NCBI GenBank assembly: GCA_011390615.1
Contig: JAABSB010000017.1
Coordinates: 1-34,740 of the forward strand
DNA length: 34,740 bases
Source: Desulfotignum sp.
Lineage (GTDB): Bacteria > Desulfobacterota > Desulfobacteria > Desulfobacterales > Desulfobacteraceae
Direction of reading: 5' to 3'
The position numbers were made by a program, and so were the translations under genes. Below, piece by piece: positions 158 through 33,727 of the stretch. Under the pieces are notes generated by a model. It ran no database searches. It worked only from the letters and a program-made list of their open reading frames with translations, and was not told where the DNA came from. Within the stretch, counting starts at the first letter, position 1, and the number at the start of each line of letters is the position of its first letter.

Positions 158-1333
158 TCAGGACGGGCCGGCGGTTTGAAGGGTAATGGTAAAACAGGTG
201 CCCTGGCCTTCGGTTGAATCCACATACATTTTTCCGCCGTGTTCCTCTATGATGCCGTAGACCACGGACAGCCCCAGACCCACGCCTTTGCCTTTCTTCT
301 TGGTGGTAAAAAACGGCTCAAATATTTTGGAAATATATGCATTGGGTATGCCGGCACCGGTATCCATGATCTGCATTTTCACGGCATTCTTGTCCGGAAT
401 ACTGCATGTTTTCAGGGTCAGCCTTTTTCTGGGAGCCTGGGCCATACTTTCCACGGCATTGGAGATCAGGTTCATTACCACCTGCTGGATCTGGTCTTCT
501 GATCCCCTGATCAGGGGCAGGTTTCTTTCCAGATCTTCGATGATCCGGATCTTGTTGAGGCGCAGCAGGTTGGCGTTGAGCATCAACGTCTGTTCAATGA
601 GTTCGTTGACGTCAAACCGGGTGACCTCTATTTTGGACTGCCGGGCAAAGGCCAGCAAATTGCCAATGATGCGGGTCACCCGGCGGGTTTCGGTTTCCAT
701 GAGATCCAGGTATTGCTGAAAAACACCCAGTTCCGATTCCGTGATACTGTCTTCTTTTAATATCCGCTTGCTGAGCAGCACCAGGTTGAGTATGCCTGCC
801 ACAGGGTTGTTGATCTCATGGACCACGGAAGAGGACAATTTGCCCAGAGATGCCATCTTGTCCTGGTGCAGAAGCTGTTCATGGGATTCTTTCAACTGCC
901 GGGTGCGCTCCTCCACCATTTTCTGCAAATGCTCTCTGGTCTTTTTTTCATCGGACTTGCGTTTGGTGATGTCCCGGCTGATTTCAATAAATTTTAAGAT
1001 TTTACCTTTTTTTTCCCAGATAGGAAAAATGGTCAATTCCGTGTACCAGGTTTTGCCTTTCTGGTCCACCCGGGAAAGCTCCACCTGGCAGTGGCGCCTT
1101 TTTCTGATCACCTGATCCAGGGGGCATTTTTCATGGCAGTTGGAACTTTTTTGGGTGATGCGCTGAAACACCTCATAGCATTTTTTACCGATCACATCTT
1201 TCCGGTGATACTGCATGTGCTTTAAAAACGCTTCATTGACCTCCAGGATTTCCTGATCCGGAGAAATAATGAGAATAAAATCCCTGATTCCGTTGAGGAT
1301 GGTCTCAAATTCATTCTGGGGAACACCGGCCAT
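158..1333 (-). CDS. PAS-domain sensor histidine kinase (apparently cytosolic)
   Basis: 391 aa; N-terminal PAS, H-box HEINNPVAGILNLV, N-box NLISNAVES, G-boxes DTGAGIP and GKGVGLGLSVVYGIIEEHGG; no obvious TM segment. Confidence 0.93.
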   Translation of the reverse strand: MAGVPQNEFETILNGIRDFILIISPDQEILEVNEAFLKHMQYHRKDVIGKKCYEVFQRITQKSSNCHEKCPLDQVIRKRRHCQVELSRVDQKGKTWYTELTIFPIWEKKGKILKFIEISRDITKRKSDEKKTREHLQKMVEERTRQLKESHEQLLHQDKMASLGKLSSSVVHEINNPVAGILNLVLLSKRILKEDSITESELGVFQQYLDLMETETRRVTRIIGNLLAFARQSKIEVTRFDVNELIEQTLMLNANLLRLNKIRIIEDLERNLPLIRGSEDQIQQVVMNLISNAVESMAQAPRKRLTLKTCSIPDKNAVKMQIMDTGAGIPNAYISKIFEPFFTTKKKGKGVGLGLSVVYGIIEEHGGKMYVDSTEGQGTCFTITLQTAGPS

Positions 1334-1548
1334 GGAAAACCCCTTGCAAATATTTCAACAAATGGGAAATATACCTTTTTTACCACAGGCCCTGCAAAAA
1401 ACACAAGCGCGAGTTCTGCAACGCTTAAGGGCAGCACATGTAGTAACATCATGTTCAGCTGCTTGATACCCACAGGGGTGGTCTTCAGGAAACAGTTGCA
1501 CAAACCCGGATGTATTCCAGGACAAATTGCTGCAAATTCCCACAACGG

Positions 1549-1565
1549 TGTCGTAAAATTCGACA
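1549..1565. promoter_or_regulatory. Candidate activator binding site (inverted repeat TGTCG-N7-CGACA)
   Basis: tgtcgtaaaattcgaca; perfect 5-bp arms, about 180 bp upstream of the candidate sigma54 promoter. Confidence 0.4.
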
Positions 1566-1746
1566 ATACACCAAACATCCTGATGTCAAGTGGATGACCC
1601 ACTTTTTTATCCAGTTCCGGACAAACCACTGTTGAAAAATCCGCCATTCCCCGCCTCCCCGAATTTTTGCCGGGATCTGAAAATGATATTGGAAAACCTG
1701 CCTGAAATCACGGGTGTTCAGGTTTTTATGTCCCCGGTTCAGGCCC

Positions 1747-1762
1747 TGGTATTGTTTTTGCT
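1747..1762 (+). promoter_or_regulatory. Candidate sigma54 (-24/-12) promoter for the GcvH-like gene pair
   Basis: TGGTATTGTTTTTGCT: GG and GC dinucleotides with exact 10-nt spacing and TTGC -12 element, 60 nt upstream of the 1822 ATG; an NtrC-family regulator gene lies at 4236-5579. Confidence 0.55.
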
Positions 1763-1821: not shown

Positions 1822-2742
1822 ATGACGACCACAACAACAATCTCTGTTTTGAAAAAAAATGTTTCAAAAACCAGCCCTGTCTGGGAAATCGGCAAACAAA
1901 ATACCCCGCGTCCCTGCATCTGGATGCAGGCCGGGGTGACGGCCCAAAAAAACTGTACCCATTATTATGACTGCACCGGGTGTAAATACGATGCTGCCAT
2001 GGAAAAGGCTGCAGCCGCCGGCAAACACCCCACCTGGCAGGAGGCCATGCGGCGGCAGCCGGGCAGCCGCCGCATCTGCCGCCATGCCATGACCGGCCGG
2101 AGTGACATGCGCACCTGCCCCATGAATTACAACTGCGACCGGTGCGAATTTGACCAGGTGTTTGAGGACACTTTGATTCCTGCCCGGGGCCATAAACCTG
2201 TCAGAATTACCCGGGTCAAGGGGTTTGACCTGGCCGGCGGGTATTATTTCCATTCAGGCCATACCTGGGCTGCCATTGACAGTGGCGGTGTCATCCGGGT
2301 GGGAATGGATGATTTTTCCTTCAAGGTGCTGGGGGGGCCTGACGGCTTCGACCTGCCTTTGGTGGGCCAGGAGCTGAACCAGGCCAGGGCCAGCTGGGGT
2401 ATTCGCCGCAAAGATAACCAGGCAGATGTCCGCTCCCCGGTGAACGGGGTGATCACCCGGGTCAATGAAACCGTAAGATCCCGGCCTGATCTCTCCCAGG
2501 ATCACCCTTACGGTGAAGGCTGGCTGTTCACGGTGCACAATGCAGATATCAAAGGCGCGGTAAAGCATCTGATGGATGATGAAACCAGCATCGCCTGGCT
2601 GGACGATGACGTCACCGCCCTTGAAAAGATGATTGAAGAGATCACAGGCCCCCTGGCCGCTGACGGCGGTGTGCTGCAAAGAGATGTCTTCGGCGGCCTG
2701 CCGGCCCTGGGATGGGACCGGCTGACCCGGACTTTTCTGTAA
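1822..2742 (+). CDS. Cys-rich N-terminal region fused to a GcvH-like (lipoyl-fold) domain, lipoyl lysine not conserved
   Basis: 306 aa; SD aaaggagg upstream. N-terminus has two C-x3-M...C-x5-C-x2-C-x-[YF]-D units; C-terminus resembles GcvH (SGHTWAAIDSGGVIRVGMDDF...RSPVNGVITRVNE...PYGEGW). Confidence 0.85.
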   Translation: MTTTTTISVLKKNVSKTSPVWEIGKQNTPRPCIWMQAGVTAQKNCTHYYDCTGCKYDAAMEKAAAAGKHPTWQEAMRRQPGSRRICRHAMTGRSDMRTCPMNYNCDRCEFDQVFEDTLIPARGHKPVRITRVKGFDLAGGYYFHSGHTWAAIDSGGVIRVGMDDFSFKVLGGPDGFDLPLVGQELNQARASWGIRRKDNQADVRSPVNGVITRVNETVRSRPDLSQDHPYGEGWLFTVHNADIKGAVKHLMDDETSIAWLDDDVTALEKMIEEITGPLAADGGVLQRDVFGGLPALGWDRLTRTFL

Positions 2743-2768
2743 TTTTTTTACCTGCAAGGAGAAATCCC

Positions 2769-3692
2769 ATGGAACAGTTTCAAACCACAAAGCAAACAGA
2801 CCCCCAGTGCCTGTGGATGCAGGCGGGGGTGGTCCCAAAAAAATATTGCCCCATGGATTTTTCCTGTACCGGCTGCCGGTTTGACCGGGCCTTGAACCGG
2901 GTGTGCAGACTAAACCAGCACCTTCTGAACCAGGGAAAGATGCCTTCCGGGAAAAAAGGCTCTCTTATGTTCTGGCAGGACCGGCTCAAAAAAATGCCGC
3001 TGGCCAAACGCCCCTGCATCCACCACATGAAGGGAAAAATTTCCTTTAAGTCCTGCCCTAAAGCGTATCACTGCATTGACTGTGAATTTGACCAGTACTT
3101 TTATGACCAGTTCAAGGTGCATGCCATGATGCAGCCCATGGACTTTGAAACCGTCAGCGGGGTGGTTATGCCGGCAGGGTATTATCTGTCTGCCGGACAC
3201 ACCTGGGTGAAGATCGAAGACCAGGGGATTGTGCGCATGGGGATAGATGATTTTGCCTCCCGGCTTGTGGGAAAAATTGACCACATGGCAATCCCCCTGA
3301 TGGGTAAGGAAATCTCACAGGGACAGGCCGGGTTCACCCTGTTTCGCAACAGATATCCCATAACATTTACCTCTGCAGTTTCCGGCATCATCACCCAGGT
3401 CAACCCGGAGATAAAAAAGAATCCTGACCTGGTGACAAACGCCCCGTATACTGACGGGTGGATATGCCTGGTATACTGCCCGGATATCAAGCAGAATCTC
3501 AAAAACCTTTTGTTCATGGCAGACAGCCGGCGGTTCATGGCCGGCCAAGTTGAAAATCTGCATGCATTTTTGGAAGATGCCACGCAATTGAAAGCAGCTG
3601 ACGGCGGCTCTATGGTCAGAGATATTCTGGGCAATGTCCCGGAGGCACAAAGGGACCGGCTGATAAAAACCTTTATTTCTCCAGGGCCTTGA
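2769..3692 (+). CDS. Second Cys-rich GcvH-like protein (paralogue of the upstream gene)
   Basis: 307 aa from ATG 2769 (SD aaggag); same layout: CLWMQAGVVPKKYCPMDFSCTGCRFD ... CIHHMKGKISFKSCPKAYHCIDCEFDQ ... SAGHTWVKIEDQGIVRMGIDDF ... SAVSGIITQVNPE...PYTDGW. Confidence 0.85.
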   Translation: MEQFQTTKQTDPQCLWMQAGVVPKKYCPMDFSCTGCRFDRALNRVCRLNQHLLNQGKMPSGKKGSLMFWQDRLKKMPLAKRPCIHHMKGKISFKSCPKAYHCIDCEFDQYFYDQFKVHAMMQPMDFETVSGVVMPAGYYLSAGHTWVKIEDQGIVRMGIDDFASRLVGKIDHMAIPLMGKEISQGQAGFTLFRNRYPITFTSAVSGIITQVNPEIKKNPDLVTNAPYTDGWICLVYCPDIKQNLKNLLFMADSRRFMAGQVENLHAFLEDATQLKAADGGSMVRDILGNVPEAQRDRLIKTFISPGP

Positions 3693-4221
3693 TGCTGTCG
3701 GACAAATAAATGCTGCAGTACCGGCAGAACCGGTTCAGCTTTTGGTCCACATCTGCAATTTTGCGGCAGTAATGCATGATGCACAACGGGTCTTCACAAT
3801 GGCGTAGATCAAAGGTATGGCCCAGCTCATGGATTGCTTCTTTGACAATCCGATCCATGAACCCGGCCGTACCCGCGGCATCCAGGCCGGTGTTCAGCCG
3901 AAAGATGGAAACAACGGCTGCCCTGCCTCCCAGCTGGGCCTCGCCATACACATGGGTTAAAATGGGAATGAACAGATCTTTTTTGGTGATGGCCACAACC
4001 TTGAGGCAGTGCTCAGTGGCATTTTTTTCCAGCTCTTCCAGCACCCGGGTGGACCAATACTGATTCCGGTCCACATCATAGGCAAAATCAATGTCCGGCA
4101 AAAGCGGGGTGATCCGGACATCGGTTTTAAAAACCTTCACAACTTTGTCTGCCACCGCCCCACTGATATCATCGCCAATATCGCCCACAGGGGATACCAG
4201 AATCAGACCGGGCGGTTTCAT
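3673..4221 (-). CDS. Archaemetzincin-like zinc metalloprotease
   Basis: 182 aa with HELGHTFDLRHCEDPLCIM...CRYC, matching the archaemetzincin zinc/Cys signature apart from the metzincin Gly; convergent with and overlapping the 3' end of the 2769-3692 gene by 20 bp. Confidence 0.88.
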   Translation of the reverse strand: MKPPGLILVSPVGDIGDDISGAVADKVVKVFKTDVRITPLLPDIDFAYDVDRNQYWSTRVLEELEKNATEHCLKVVAITKKDLFIPILTHVYGEAQLGGRAAVVSIFRLNTGLDAAGTAGFMDRIVKEAIHELGHTFDLRHCEDPLCIMHYCRKIADVDQKLNRFCRYCSIYLSDSIKALEK

Positions 4222-5643: not shown

Positions 5644-6267
5644 TCAACGGATTTCTACGAGCATCTCTTTTGGATGGCGACGTCGGGGAGGCTGGTCTGT
5701 GGCCCTATACCCTAAGGCCACCAGCACCGCCACCTCAAATTCTTTGGTATCTATACCCAGAACAGCCTCTACCCGGTCTTTTTCAAATCCTTCCATGGGG
5801 CAGGAATCAATCCCCAGAGACGCTGCCGTGGTCATGATATTGGCCAGGGCAATGTAGCACTGTTTGCAGCACCAGGCATACAGGTTCATCCGGGGAAAAA
5901 CCTCGGTTTCCATATACCACTTATATTTTTCAATATAGGCTTTGGTTGCATCTTCCGGCAGTCCCCGTTTGGCAAAACTTGTGTCTACATAAGGGTTGCC
6001 AGGGGTGACCAGATCAGGTCTGGCAAGGATCACGACTAGATGGCTGCTTTCGGTCACCTGGGGCTGGTCCCAGCAGGCCGGCCGCAATTTTTTCCGGATA
6101 TCCACAGACTGGAGTACTAAAAATTTCCAGGCCTCCATACCGAATGAAAATGGAGACAGTCTTGCTGCCTCTAAAATCGTATCCAGGTCTTTGGGGATAA
6201 TTTTTTTATCCGGATCAAATTTTTTACAGGCATGCCGGAAATGCAGGGCATCGATAATGGCATTCAT
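5644..6267 (-). CDS. Nitroreductase family protein
   Basis: 207 aa; AIIDALHFRHACKKFDPDK...LEAARLSPFSFGMEAWKFLVL and GIDSCPMEGFEKDRVEAVLGI are nitroreductase (NfnB-like) motifs. Confidence 0.9.
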   Translation of the reverse strand: MNAIIDALHFRHACKKFDPDKKIIPKDLDTILEAARLSPFSFGMEAWKFLVLQSVDIRKKLRPACWDQPQVTESSHLVVILARPDLVTPGNPYVDTSFAKRGLPEDATKAYIEKYKWYMETEVFPRMNLYAWCCKQCYIALANIMTTAASLGIDSCPMEGFEKDRVEAVLGIDTKEFEVAVLVALGYRATDQPPRRRHPKEMLVEIR

Positions 6268-27374: not shown

Positions 27375-27812
27375 ATGCCGACTTTTGTAATCACAGAAAA
27401 ATGTGACGGCTGTAAAGGCGGGGATAAAACAGCATGTATGTACATCTGCCCGAATGATCTGATGGTTCTGGATCCCAATGAAATGAAAGCGTATAACCAG
27501 GAACCGGATCAGTGCTGGGAATGTTATTCCTGTGTGAAAATCTGTCCGTCCCAGGCCATTGAAGTCAGAGGCTACAATGACTTTGTCCCCATGGGCGCAT
27601 CTGTCGTTCCCATGCTGGGTACCGAAGATGTCATGTGGACCTGCAAGTTCAGAAATGGTGTTGTTAAACGGTTCAAGTTCCCCATCAGGACTACCCCTGA
27701 AGGCGAAGCCAATTCCTATGATGATCTCAAGGGCAAAGATTTGAATTCCGGCCTGCTTTCCACCCAGGAAGCAGACGGGTATGAATTTCCTACACCCCAG
27801 GAACTGGCATAA
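27375..27812 (+). CDS. aprB: Adenylylsulfate reductase beta subunit
   Basis: 145 aa; MPTFVITEKCDGCKGGDKTACMYICPNDLMVLD...CWECYSCVKICPSQAIEVRGY; SD ggaggt. Confidence 0.99.
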   Translation: MPTFVITEKCDGCKGGDKTACMYICPNDLMVLDPNEMKAYNQEPDQCWECYSCVKICPSQAIEVRGYNDFVPMGASVVPMLGTEDVMWTCKFRNGVVKRFKFPIRTTPEGEANSYDDLKGKDLNSGLLSTQEADGYEFPTPQELA

Positions 27813-27864
27813 TTTTAACCGTTACCAAAACAAAAATTCTGACACTTAATTTTGGAGGTATATA

Positions 27865-29826
27865 ATGGCATTACCGAACAAACCTGTTGGAGAGCTTAAA
27901 GCAGTTAGAGACCCAGAGGTTGATAAAAGAGACGTTGATATTCTGATCATCGGCGGCGGTATGGCTGCCTGTGGAACTGCGTTTGAAATCAAAAAATGGG
28001 CGGATGAAGGCACCAAGATTCTGCTGTGTGACAAAGCTGCCCTTGAGAGATCAGGTGCTGTTGCCCAGGGTCTGTCCGCCATCAACACCTATGTTGGTGA
28101 AAACAAAATCGAAGACTATGTCCGCATGGTCAGAAACGACCTGATGGGTATTGTCCGCGAAGACCTGATCTATGATCTGGGCCGTCACGTGGATGACTCG
28201 GTTCACCTGTTCGAAGAATGGGGTCTGCCTGTCTGGAAGAAAACTGATGACGGCAAGAACATGGACGGTAAGAAAGGGTTGAAACTCGGAACCCTTAAAG
28301 CCGGTGCCACCCCGGTTCGTACCGGTAAATGGCAGATCATGATCAATGGTGAATCCTACAAGAGAATTGTTGCTGAAGCCGGCAAAAAAGCCCTTGGCGA
28401 AGACAACATCATTGAAAGATGCTTTATTGTTGAACTGCTCAATGACAAGGAAGATCCCAACCGCGTTGCCGGTGCTGTGGGTTTTTCTGTGCGGGAAAAC
28501 AAAGTCTACATCATTAATGCAAAAACCATTATGGTTGCCTGTGGCGGCGCGGTGAACGTTTACCAGCCCCGCTCTGTTGGAGAGGGAAAAGGCCGTGCAT
28601 GGTACCCTGTATGGAATGCCGGCTCTACCTATACAATGGCCCTGCGGGCTGGTGCTGAGCTGTCCATGATGGAAAACCGTTTCACCCCGGCCCGTTTTAA
28701 AGATGGTTACGGCCCTGTTGGTGCCTGGTTCCTGCTGTTCAAGGCCCAGACCGTGAACGGACTTGGTGAAAACTATGCTGCCTCTGATGAGGCCAAGGCT
28801 GAGCTGGAAAAATATGCGCCTTACGGCACAGCAGCTGTAACCCCCACCTGTCTGAGAAACCATCTCATGATGAAAGAATACAAAGAAGGCCGCGGGCCCA
28901 TCATCATGAAAACATCTGATGCCCTGGCAAAACTGGGTGAGACCATGAGCAAAAAAGAGCTCAAGCACCTGGAATCAGAAGCATGGGAAGATTTCCTTGA
29001 CATGTCTGTTGGTCAGGCTGGTCTGTGGTGTGCAACCAACACCGAACCTGAGAAAAAAGACTCAGAAGTCATGCCCACCGAACCGTACCTGCTGGGATCC
29101 CATTCCGGCTGCTGCGGCATCTGGTGCTCCGGTCCGGATGAAGACTGGGTCCCGGCTGACTACAAATGGGGCTACAACAGAATGACCACTGTTCGCGGTC
29201 TGTTCACTGCCGGCGACGGTGTCGGCTGTTCCGGACACAAGTTCTCTTCCGGTTCCCATGCTGAAGGCCGTATTGTTGCCAAATCCATGGTGCAGTACCT
29301 GAAAGCCGAAGGCGACAAGGTCACCGGTTTCAAAGAAACCGATCAGGAACTGGTTGACTATGTTTACAAACCGGTGAGAAACTACCTTGACCATTGTGAA
29401 TTCACAACTGCCCAGGATATCAACCCCAACTACTGCAAACCTGCCGGCATGGCACTGCGCCTCATGAAAATGACAAATGAGTACGGCGGTGGTACCGGTA
29501 CCTACTACATGACCTCAGGCAAGAATCTTGAAGTACTCATGGACCTGTTTGAAATGTTCCGTGAAGACCTTGAGAAAATTGCCGCAGGCGACCTGCATGA
29601 ACTGATGAGAGCATGGGAGATCAACCACCGTCTCTACACGGTTCAGGCCCATACACGTCATATCCAGTTCCGTGAAGAATCCCGGTATCCTGGTTTCTAC
29701 TACAGAGGTGACTTCATGGGCCAGAATGATGATGAATGGTTCTGCTTTACAAATTCATCATACAACAAAGAAACCAATGAGTGGACCCTCAAGAAAGTTC
29801 CCTACGTTAAGATTATTGCAGACTAG
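27865..29826 (+). CDS. aprA: Adenylylsulfate reductase alpha subunit
   Basis: 653 aa; ILIIGGGMAACGTAFE FAD motif, VAQGLSAINTY, SHSGCCGIWCSGPDEDWVP; SD ggaggt. Confidence 0.99.
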   Translation: MALPNKPVGELKAVRDPEVDKRDVDILIIGGGMAACGTAFEIKKWADEGTKILLCDKAALERSGAVAQGLSAINTYVGENKIEDYVRMVRNDLMGIVREDLIYDLGRHVDDSVHLFEEWGLPVWKKTDDGKNMDGKKGLKLGTLKAGATPVRTGKWQIMINGESYKRIVAEAGKKALGEDNIIERCFIVELLNDKEDPNRVAGAVGFSVRENKVYIINAKTIMVACGGAVNVYQPRSVGEGKGRAWYPVWNAGSTYTMALRAGAELSMMENRFTPARFKDGYGPVGAWFLLFKAQTVNGLGENYAASDEAKAELEKYAPYGTAAVTPTCLRNHLMMKEYKEGRGPIIMKTSDALAKLGETMSKKELKHLESEAWEDFLDMSVGQAGLWCATNTEPEKKDSEVMPTEPYLLGSHSGCCGIWCSGPDEDWVPADYKWGYNRMTTVRGLFTAGDGVGCSGHKFSSGSHAEGRIVAKSMVQYLKAEGDKVTGFKETDQELVDYVYKPVRNYLDHCEFTTAQDINPNYCKPAGMALRLMKMTNEYGGGTGTYYMTSGKNLEVLMDLFEMFREDLEKIAAGDLHELMRAWEINHRLYTVQAHTRHIQFREESRYPGFYYRGDFMGQNDDEWFCFTNSSYNKETNEWTLKKVPYVKIIAD

Positions 29827-29866
29827 TGTACATATGATCTGACACGTACGTGACTTTGAACATTAA

Positions 29867-29904
29867 CCTCCAGGTGCCGGCAGTTCGGTGCCTGGGGGTT
29901 TTTT
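29867..29904 (+). terminator. Intrinsic terminator downstream of aprA
   Basis: cctccaggtgccg-gcagtt-cggtgcctggggg-TTTTTT; 13-bp stem with three G-T pairs. Confidence 0.85.
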
Positions 29905-29943
29905 CAAATTCCAGGTCCTGTTTTTTTACAAAAACTGTTCCTG

Positions 29944-30012
29944 TCTCCTTTTTTGACCGCCTGCAAAACGAAAAAACAGCCCAGCCGCTTTGCCGGTGGT
30001 CAAAACAGGAGA
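29944..30012 (+). repeat. Long imperfect hairpin (27-nt arms, 15-nt loop) upstream of qmoA
   Basis: tctccttttttgaccgcctgcaaaacg / cgctttgccggtggtcaaaacaggaga pair with three mismatches and one G-T. Confidence 0.7.
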
Positions 30013-30107
30013 GAGGATGACAAATTCCGAATCCTGACGGGATGTTACAACCTGGTATTAACCAAATAAAAACAATTGAATACAACTCAAATGCACGGAG
30101 GGACAGC

Positions 30108-31382
30108 ATGACAACAGATAATTCAGCCCCGGTCAGTGGAAGCATTATGGTGGTTGGTGGGGGAATCAGCGGCCTGACAACCGCCCTGGAAGCTGCCGAA
30201 GTGGGGTATGAGGTCTTCCTGATTGAAAAGGAAGCATCCCTTGGTGGAAGAGTGTCCCAGCTGAAACACTACTTCCCTAAACTCTGCCCGCCCACATGCG
30301 GACTTGAAATCAACTACAGGCGCATAAAAGACAATAAAAATATCAAGGTGCTCACCATGTCAGAAGTCCAGAGCGTGGCAGGCACCCCCGGAGACTATAC
30401 TGTCACCGTAAAAACAGCTCCCAGGTATGTCAATGAAAACTGCACTGCCTGCGGCGAATGTGCCAAGGTATGTGAAACAGAAATCTCCAATGAATTCAAC
30501 TTTGGCATGGACCGGAGAAAAGCCGCCTACCTGCCCCACAACATGGCCTTCCCCATGCGGTATATCATGGATCCGTCCATGGGTACCGATGACAGAGACA
30601 AGGTGAAAGAAGCCTGTAAGTATGACGCCATTGACTTTGACATGGAAGAAAAAACCATTGATCTCAAAGTGGGCGCTGTTGTATGGAATACCGGCTGGCA
30701 GCCCTATGACGCTACCCGGATAGACAACCTGGGATTCGGCCGGTACCAGAACATCATCACCAACATGATGCTCGAAAGAATGGCCTCCCTGAACGGCCCG
30801 ACCCAGGGAAAGATTGTAAGACCTTCTGACGACAAGGCCCCTGCGACCATAGCATTTGCCCAGTGTGCCGGCTCCAGGGACGAAAACCATCTCCCCTACT
30901 GCTCTTACATCTGCTGCATGGCATCTTTGAAACATGCCACTTACCTGCGGGAACAATACCCGGATGCAAAAATTTACATCTATTATATTGACCTGAGAAC
31001 TCCGGGGCTGAAATATGAAAAATTCTATGCAAAGCTCAAGGAAGATGAAAATATCTTTTTCATTAAAGGGAAAGTGGCTGAGGTCAGTGAAGAGGACAGC
31101 ACCGGCAATATCAAACTGGTGGCGGAAGATACCATCACCGGTGATAAAATCAGACAGACTGTGGACCTGCTGGTACTGGCTACCGGCATGCAGCCCACTG
31201 CGGCCATTGACAAACCAGCCGCAGACCTGAACTTTGATACGGATGGGTTTATTATCAATGACTTTTCAAAAGGCGGTATGTTTGCGGCAGGATGCGCCAA
31301 CAAGCCGGCCGATGTTGTCACTTCTAACCAGAATGCCACCGGCATGGCACTCAAAGCCATTCAGACCCTTGTAAGGAGGTAA
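30108..31382 (+). CDS. qmoA: Quinone-interacting membrane-bound oxidoreductase subunit A (HdrA-like flavoprotein)
   Basis: Start ATG 30108 (MTTDNSAPVSGSIMVVGGGISGLTTALEAAEVGYEVFLIEKEASLGGRVSQL); CTACGECAKVC; context after aprBA. Confidence 0.96.
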   Translation: MTTDNSAPVSGSIMVVGGGISGLTTALEAAEVGYEVFLIEKEASLGGRVSQLKHYFPKLCPPTCGLEINYRRIKDNKNIKVLTMSEVQSVAGTPGDYTVTVKTAPRYVNENCTACGECAKVCETEISNEFNFGMDRRKAAYLPHNMAFPMRYIMDPSMGTDDRDKVKEACKYDAIDFDMEEKTIDLKVGAVVWNTGWQPYDATRIDNLGFGRYQNIITNMMLERMASLNGPTQGKIVRPSDDKAPATIAFAQCAGSRDENHLPYCSYICCMASLKHATYLREQYPDAKIYIYYIDLRTPGLKYEKFYAKLKEDENIFFIKGKVAEVSEEDSTGNIKLVAEDTITGDKIRQTVDLLVLATGMQPTAAIDKPAADLNFDTDGFIINDFSKGGMFAAGCANKPADVVTSNQNATGMALKAIQTLVRR

Positions 31383-31390
31383 TATAAACC

Positions 31391-33727
31391 ATGGATAAGA
31401 AATACGGCGTATATATCTGCACAGGCTGCGGAATCGGAGATACCCTTGACATGGAAGATCTGGTGGATATTCCTGAAGAAGAGGGCGTAAACTGTACCAC
31501 CCATCCTTTCCTGTGCTCCAAAGAAGGGGTGGCTCTCATCCAGAAGGATGTGGACGAGGACAAGGTCAATGCCATGGTGATCGGCGCATGTTCCCGCCGG
31601 GTCAACTTTGATGTTTTCCGTTTTGACAACTGCCTTGTTGAACGGGTGAATCTACGGGAAGGCGTGGTATGGCCGCATTCCCGGGAGACCTATCCCGCTT
31701 TAACCCAGGAAGAAAAAGATGATGAGGAACATTTTGACCGGATCCAGATGAAAGCGGAAGACTATATCAAAATGGGCATGATCCGCCTGGAAAAAGTCAA
31801 GCTGCCCGCACCCTATAAACCGGAATCATTTTCCAAAAAAATTTTGGTGCTGGGTGGTGGTGTTACCGGCATGGCAGCGGCTTTGGATGCTGCCAAGACA
31901 GGTTATGATGTAACCATTGTCGAAAAAACCGATGCCCTGGGCGGATATGCAGCAAAACTGCGCAGCCAGATGCCGGTATCTGCACCCTTTGAAACCCTGC
32001 AGTCTCCGGTGGTGGATAAAATGATCCAGGAAATTGAAGGATATCCCAGTATTGATGTTAGAACCGGTTGTGAGGTGGCACGGATTGCTGGTCAACCCGG
32101 CGAGTTCACCGTAACATTTAAAAAACCCGGAGAAAGAATCCCCTTTGATGTACCATTTCCCCTGCCCGAAGAGATGATGGTGGATGAAAACGGCAAAGAG
32201 CTGGACCCGGAAGCGGCCCATGCCAAGTTTCTGGAATACAATGAGGGCCGGCTGGATATCCTCAAGCTGGATCCGGACGGAGAACTTTACGGTGCTGTTA
32301 TCCTGGCGGCTGGATGGCGGCCGGCAGACCTGTCAAAACTGGGGATTGACCACTTGGGACTTGACCTGCCAGACGTGGTGAGCAACCATGAGTTTGAACA
32401 GATTGCCGCCAATGGAAAAATTGTGCGCCCCTCTGATGGAAAGCCTGCCAAAAACGTGGTTTTTATCCAGTCCCCGGGCAAAGATGGTGATGATGCCGAC
32501 TTTGACTACTGCGGTTCCGTCACCTCCCAGGTGGCGTTGAAACAGGCCCGGTATGTCACTGAAGACTATGATGACGGAAAAGCCTATGTGATTTACCAGC
32601 ACATGAGAACCCCCGGGCTGCAGGAATATTTTTACAAGAGCATGCAGCAGGAAGACGGGGTGTTTATGACAAAAGGCGCTGTCACCAGCGTGGAAACCCA
32701 GGGAGAGGGCCTGGCGGTGACTGCCGTCAATACCCTCTTGGGAGAAAATCTGGCTCTCAAGGCGGATATGGTGGTGGTAGCCGGCGGCATGGTGCCTGTC
32801 ACCAAAGATGACCCGGTGGTCAATCTGGCCTATCGCCAGGGTCCGGGATTCCGTGATAATGATATTTTCGGCCAGTATGCCGACTCCAACTACATCTGTT
32901 TTCCCTATGAAACCCAGAGAACTGGAATCTACGCTGCGGGTGCCATCCGGCGGGCCATGACCATTGAAGAATCCATTGAAGATGCGGCAGGAGCGGCCCT
33001 CAAAGCCATCCAGTGTGTTGAAAGTGCCAACCGGGGCATGTCAGTCCATCCCAGATCCGGAGACATGACCTTTCCGGAATTTTTCTTCCAAAGATGTACC
33101 CAGTGTAAACGGTGCACCGTTGAATGCCCGTTTGGCGCCCTGGATGATGATGCAAAGGGCACCCCAAAGGCGAATCCCACCCGCTGCAGACGGTGCGGTA
33201 CCTGTATGGGGGCTTGCCCGGAACGTATCATCTCATTTGCCGACTATACCATCGACTCCATCGGTTCCCAGGTAAAGGCGGTTGGTGTACCATCGGAAGA
33301 CGATTTTGATGAGCCGCCCCTGCGGTTTCTGGCGCTGATCTGTGAAAACGATGCATTCCCGGCCCTGGACATGGTAGGGCTGAACCGCATCGACTATTCT
33401 CCTGACGTACGGTTTATACCGGTGCGGTGCCTGGGTTCGGTAAACACCATCTGGATCAAGGATGCTCTGGCCCAGGGTATGGACGGTGTTATCCTCATCG
33501 GCTGCAAACATGGAGATGACTACCAGTGCCATTTTGTCAAAGGATCTGAACTGGCTGAGATCCGGGTGAAAAAAATCGGGGATGCCTTGGCCAGCCTGGC
33601 TTTGGAAGAAGAGCGCGTCGCCTTTGTGGAAGTGGCCATTGATGAATATGACAAACTGCCCAAAATCATCAATGATTTTGTTGAAGAGGTTGATGCGCTG
33701 GGTCCCAACCCGTTCAAGGGATTCTAA
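31391..33727 (+). CDS. qmoB: Quinone-interacting membrane-bound oxidoreductase subunit B (HdrA/MvhD-like fusion)
   Basis: 778 aa; VLGGGVTGMAAALDAAKTGYDVTIVEK, CTQCKRCTVECPFGAL and CRRCGTCMGACPE clusters, C-terminal MvhD-like domain. Confidence 0.96.
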   Translation: MDKKYGVYICTGCGIGDTLDMEDLVDIPEEEGVNCTTHPFLCSKEGVALIQKDVDEDKVNAMVIGACSRRVNFDVFRFDNCLVERVNLREGVVWPHSRETYPALTQEEKDDEEHFDRIQMKAEDYIKMGMIRLEKVKLPAPYKPESFSKKILVLGGGVTGMAAALDAAKTGYDVTIVEKTDALGGYAAKLRSQMPVSAPFETLQSPVVDKMIQEIEGYPSIDVRTGCEVARIAGQPGEFTVTFKKPGERIPFDVPFPLPEEMMVDENGKELDPEAAHAKFLEYNEGRLDILKLDPDGELYGAVILAAGWRPADLSKLGIDHLGLDLPDVVSNHEFEQIAANGKIVRPSDGKPAKNVVFIQSPGKDGDDADFDYCGSVTSQVALKQARYVTEDYDDGKAYVIYQHMRTPGLQEYFYKSMQQEDGVFMTKGAVTSVETQGEGLAVTAVNTLLGENLALKADMVVVAGGMVPVTKDDPVVNLAYRQGPGFRDNDIFGQYADSNYICFPYETQRTGIYAAGAIRRAMTIEESIEDAAGAALKAIQCVESANRGMSVHPRSGDMTFPEFFFQRCTQCKRCTVECPFGALDDDAKGTPKANPTRCRRCGTCMGACPERIISFADYTIDSIGSQVKAVGVPSEDDFDEPPLRFLALICENDAFPALDMVGLNRIDYSPDVRFIPVRCLGSVNTIWIKDALAQGMDGVILIGCKHGDDYQCHFVKGSELAEIRVKKIGDALASLALEEERVAFVEVAIDEYDKLPKIINDFVEEVDALGPNPFKGF

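Follow-up and report, generated by a model that had tools for sequence, protein, structure and literature searches.

Two adjacent genes in a 34,740-nt stretch of Desulfotignum sp. DNA (the window) encode Cys-rich proteins with a predicted GcvH fold in which the lipoyl-Lys has been lost. We tentatively favor, as plausible though short of probable, a reading in which the pair are sigma-54-switched, lipoyl-free adaptors or electron-transfer proteins for redox complexes of the Hdr/NrfD type, with metal or Fe-S centers, as we infer, replacing lipoate. More doubtful is the broader proposal that they stand for a large undescribed family which gave up the lipoyl arm, and whose eight-Cys branch gained Cys-ligated metal centers to become a regulated Hdr/FlpD/NrfD redox adaptor of sulfate reducers, accompanied by a dedicated archaemetzincin and Cys-PAS two-component switch. 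The analysis singles out a protein family that is common in sulfate reducers and probably carries the wrong name.

A tandem pair joining a Cys domain to a GcvH fold

The original prediction, that two adjacent paralogues each combine an eight-Cys region with a GcvH-like domain, is confirmed by the ORFs, Pfam matches and Cys positions (Table 1). The paralogues share 35% identity, and each additionally carries a C-terminal extension foreign to GcvH. The conserved Cys set (residues 32, 45, 51, 54, 86, 99, 105, and 108 in P0001; 14, 27, 33, 36, 83, 96, 102, and 105 in P0002, which has C46, C233, and C237 outside this set) forms an internal repeat, with two copies of C-x12-C-x5-C-x2-C-x-[YF]D. Orthologues of P0001 are present in Desulfotignum, Desulfobacula, Desulfospira, and others, the closest loci being those of Desulfotignum MAGs. 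For P0002, an in-frame ATG at 2712 was rejected as the start in favor of position 2769, which AAGGAG precedes.

Table 1. Features of the gene pair and its surroundings, in window coordinates
Feature	Position	Strand	Basis
PAS histidine kinase; PAS Cys 52/66/70	158..1333	-	Pfam
Candidate activator site UAS 3, degenerate, TGCTGCAAATTCCCACA; about -218, weakest of the three	1528..1544	+	Position
Candidate activator site UAS 2, palindrome, TGTCGTAAAATTCGACA	1549..1565	+	Conserved position about -197
Candidate activator site UAS 1, TGTTGAAAAATCCGCCA	1630..1646	+	Conserved position about -116 from -24 element
Predicted sigma-54 (-24/-12) promoter, TGGTATTGTTTTTGCT	1747..1762	+	1 mismatch
P0001, first Cys-rich GcvH-like protein, 306 aa	1822..2742	+	ORF; Pfam GCV_H 142-256
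Eight-Cys N-terminal domain of P0001, two C-x12-C-x5-C-x2-C repeats	1915..2145	+	Cys positions, conservation
GcvH-fold domain of P0001	2245..2589	+	Pfam; AF2; Foldseek
D198 codon, lipoyl-Lys column of P0001 (K197 codon, 2410-2412)	2413..2415	+	
C-terminal extension of P0001, not in GcvH; conserved DGG...D.[YF]G..P...W	2590..2739	+	Alignment
P0002, second Cys-rich GcvH-like protein, 307 aa	2769..3692	+	ORF, RBS AAGGAG; Pfam GCV_H 141-250
Eight-Cys N-terminal domain of P0002	2808..3083	+	Cys positions
R195 codon, lipoyl-Lys column of P0002	3351..3353	+	Alignment
Archaemetzincin (M54), motif HELGHTFDLRHC	3673..4221	-	NF033823, 148 bits (cut-off 145)
NtrC/AtoC-type sigma-54 response regulator, GAFTDA loop	4236..5579	-	Pfam; loop survey

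Profile searches and structure prediction both assign a GcvH fold to the two proteins. GCV_H is their sole Pfam match, at 56.5 bits for P0001 and 66.5 bits for P0002 (cut-off, 22.2), and the NCBIfam GcvH models score them at 58.3 and 56.2 bits, half of the equivalog cut-off of 115.85 and thus below threshold. Given these scores, the earlier suggestion that the GcvH name masks a distinct family is reasonable. In the AF2 model of P0001 (pLDDT 83.7, pTM 0.79), most of the GcvH domain has a pLDDT near or above 90; the model of P0002 resembles it, with a lower pTM of 0.59. A Foldseek search with the P0001 model returned Thermus thermophilus GcvH as the top PDB match (1onl; target TM 0.91, E 6.7e-11) and no match that would identify the Cys domain. 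A third GCV_H match in genome G000 (C158, a 63-aa frame at a contig end) was left out.

Loss of the lipoyl-Lys across a separate clade

The lipoyl-Lys of GcvH sits on a hairpin. Alignment to GcvH-type proteins of related genomes (n = 14, genuine or Lys-bearing) places D198 of P0001 and R195 of P0002 in this column, the same Asp and Arg that the original prediction had named. This does not reflect chance: only 13 of 212 distinct homologues have Lys here, the others mainly Asp, Glu, Gly, or Arg, as against Lys in 14/14 genuine GcvH proteins. The surroundings are well kept: an Arg two residues ahead of the column occurs in 197/212 homologues and an Ala three residues past it in most, and each of the eight Cys is present in 99.5 to 100%. 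Relatives from the wider phylum mostly have Gly, Ser, or Ala in the column, whether or not they carry the Cys domain. In a quick tree, one branch (SH-aLRT 98) split the lipoyl-free proteins from the Lys-bearing GcvH. Judged by these comparisons, loss of the lipoyl-Lys is an old, stable trait and not decay.

True GcvH is encoded elsewhere. In Desulfotignum genomes, a genuine short gcvH lies directly upstream of gcvP (e.g., G006:C44, 112571-112909 and 112965-114287), so that gcvP adjoins this gene instead of homologues of the pair. In the source organism's own genome, which is incomplete (83%), gcvP was not found, and the listed window ORFs include none noted as gcvT, gcvP, or lipoate ligase, as had been remarked before. 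Because the Lys column is lost throughout the clade and true GcvH sits beside gcvP in sister genomes, we concur with the original view that the pair are not glycine-cleavage carriers.

A conserved module around the GcvH-like genes

Three further features are new relative to the original prediction, namely, a conserved gene module, a promoter with activator sites, and linkage as well as fusion to Hdr/FlpD/NrfD components. The module, which recurs in Desulfobacterota, consists of the GcvH-like gene(s), a histidine kinase with a Cys-bearing PAS domain, a sigma-54 response regulator, and an archaemetzincin. Homologues of the latter three were all present at 86 of 103 loci with enough flank to be testable, that is, at 31/37, 34/39, and 21/27 in three partly overlapping sets, the first two of which share some genomes. 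A family gene lies within 3.6 kb of 41 of the 43 full archaemetzincin matches from 59 related genomes, and HExxH...HC is kept in 129/130 linked archaemetzincins. The linked regulators (n = 141) carry GAFTDA in the majority of cases (83) and GAFTGA in 46. PAS Cys 52, 66, and 70 are present in 92, 94, and 85% of the linked kinases (n = 130). This C-x13-C-x3-C pattern might constitute a redox or metal sensor. Next to the regulator, the window has a nitroreductase-family gene (5644-6267, minus strand), as do several of its close relatives.

Upstream of the pair, a -24/-12 promoter with upstream activator sites is predicted, the arrangement of a sigma-54 operon. Allowing at most one mismatch, such promoters precede 77/88 first genes, 15/31 single genes, and no second gene, compared to 0.5 in shuffles and 0 to 1 with altered spacing; the 16-mer pattern gave a signal and the 15-mer spacing none. 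Palindromes of the form [CG]TGTnGrAAAwTyCnACA[CG] recur upstream of family genes at about -116, -197, and -218, and the best palindrome word occurs in 22/90 upstream regions versus at most 6 in shuffles. The shuffles for promoters and sites preserved base composition and not dinucleotide composition. Note that these promoter and site counts are not independent because the loci are related. The linked regulator would be the protein that binds these sites. A strict pattern of activator site plus sigma-54 promoter had a single match in 146 genomes, at a family gene, which suggests autoregulation. Since genome-wide searches for the activator site gave at most a modest excess over a reversed-pattern control, and the strict match stands alone, we claim no wider regulon.

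Linkage and fusion to Hdr, FlpD, and NrfD components

In other Desulfobacterota, the family gene leads HdrC-HdrB-HdrA/HdrL-like operons (L261, L263, L275, and L277), accompanies MetF and HdrA (L258 and L271), lies near FlpD, or is found with NrfD/DsrO-like/cytochrome c3 genes (L290, L291, and L296). In two cases, a predicted lipoyl-free GcvH domain is part of a larger polypeptide, fused to HdrA-FlpD-molybdopterin-binding domains at L281:8607-11522 (972 aa) and to HdrA2 at L282:7708-11157 (1150 aa). HdrA was present at 41/120 Desulfobacterales loci versus 0/20 true-GcvH control loci, a small control with shorter loci. The Hdr link stems from relatives, many of them of the solitary type or of a short type that lacks the Cys domain; within the window's genus, the pair has no Hdr or NrfD gene as a neighbor.

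The short lipoyl-free GcvH-like proteins (about 230 to 270 aa; L278, L280, and L283 to L290) occur in other Desulfobacterota as tandem arrays with as many as four members, some beside NrfD-type complexes. Neighbor gene clusters 6, 7, and 21 were judged from their sequences to be antisense ORF artefacts. About 24 kb from the pair, ORF reading places aprB, aprA, qmoA, and qmoB (27375-33727), a dissimilatory sulfate reduction operon.

A proposed redox-switched adaptor and its alternatives

As we picture it, a dedicated redox switch would have the pair as its output. The soluble kinase with its Cys-containing PAS domain would phosphorylate the sigma-54 activator, which would then bind the upstream palindromic sites and switch on both genes from the -24/-12 promoter. 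The products would be GcvH-fold proteins no longer carrying lipoate, the hairpin having become a plain Arg-containing turn, with two four-Cys sites added ahead of the fold. We infer a metal or Fe-S cluster as the Cys ligand, complexes of the Hdr/FlpD/NrfD type as the redox partner, for which the proteins would most likely serve in electron transfer or docking, akin to LbpA for sHdr, and one component of the system as the protease substrate, to be trimmed or removed by the archaemetzincin. What the sequences themselves show is the loss of the lipoyl-Lys, the conserved Cys, the linkage of the module, the promoter with its sites, and the fusions to HdrA2 and FlpD. Against the adaptor reading stand the missing Hdr or NrfD neighbors in the window's genus and the small HdrA control. 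If the reading is right, the system offers a test of how sigma-54 may switch Hdr-type electron transfer.

Close behind this adaptor reading, and itself a realistic though doubtful possibility, is that the GcvH-like proteins belong to the signaling device: they would bind a signal (metal, redox, or sulfur) or relay it to the kinase or regulator, the archaemetzincin would reset this signal by cutting them, and the redox operons would be mere regulated cargo. Consistent with this, the four-part module of GcvH-like gene, protease, regulator, and kinase stays constant while the cargo may be Hdr, MetF, or NrfD or, as in the window, absent, and the lone strict site-plus-promoter match lies at the family gene itself. 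However, the HdrA2 and HdrA-FlpD fusions put the same fold within an electron-transfer polypeptide, and one would hardly expect a sensor subunit to be the main, tandem-copy gene behind the switched promoter. Both the two Cys4 repeats and the inducible type of promoter would also fit a metal- or sulfide-stress protein in which the GcvH fold serves as a mere scaffold for Cys that buffer zinc, iron, or persulfide. We regard this as unlikely, as the strict spacing and invariance of the eight Cys and the GcvH core exceed the needs of a buffer, and short relatives without the Cys domain are found in redox operons.

It is very improbable that P0001 is a lipoylated carrier by way of a shifted Lys197. 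The original prediction had flagged the Lys one position ahead of the Asp as a caveat, and part of it stands: in the AF2 model, K197 and D198 jointly make the hairpin turn, so that sequence alone does not settle modification of K197, and Lys occupies this position in 55/90 first-gene homologues. Yet Lys here is rare among second-gene homologues (5/90) and missing from P0002, the E-S-V context is lost, and no lipoate ligase was seen nearby among the window ORFs. Lipoylation of K197 thus appears unlikely.

Relation to known systems

For the adaptor that we favor, LbpA of the sHdr sulfur-oxidation system is, by analogy, the nearest functional parallel, being a GcvH-like protein genetically tied to an Hdr-like complex; for the present family, that tie is seen in relatives. 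LbpA strictly keeps the lipoyl-Lys and has dedicated lipoate ligases (eLife 2018, PMC6067878). The pair, in contrast, has neither a conserved lipoyl-Lys nor, among the listed window ORFs, a linked lipoate ligase, and is set apart by its eight Cys and by its linkage to an archaemetzincin and a two-component system. We therefore refuse membership in LbpA and retain the analogy. With GcvH itself (PF01597, TIGR00527), the pair shares the fold over about 115 residues and retains H147, W149, G161, G209, N215, and W234, but it differs in its missing lipoyl-Lys and gcvT/gcvP neighbors, in its low equivalog score, and in its added domain and extension. The GcvH-like side families NF045810 (GcvH_rel_desulf) and TIGR03077 (not_gcvH) give weak matches of 21 to 42 bits, far under their cut-offs of 150 and 144 bits, and short GcvH-related proteins in the Desulfobacterota genomes examined retain the Lys (VESGKW), unlike the pair. 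The literature searched, mostly papers available without subscription, yielded no account of this protein family or module. The linked protease, finally, passes the curated cut-off for archaemetzincin M54 and keeps the HExxH...HC motif, but differs in that, in this analysis, it was nearly always a neighbor of the GcvH-like gene, which gives a bacterial archaemetzincin a tight genomic partner.
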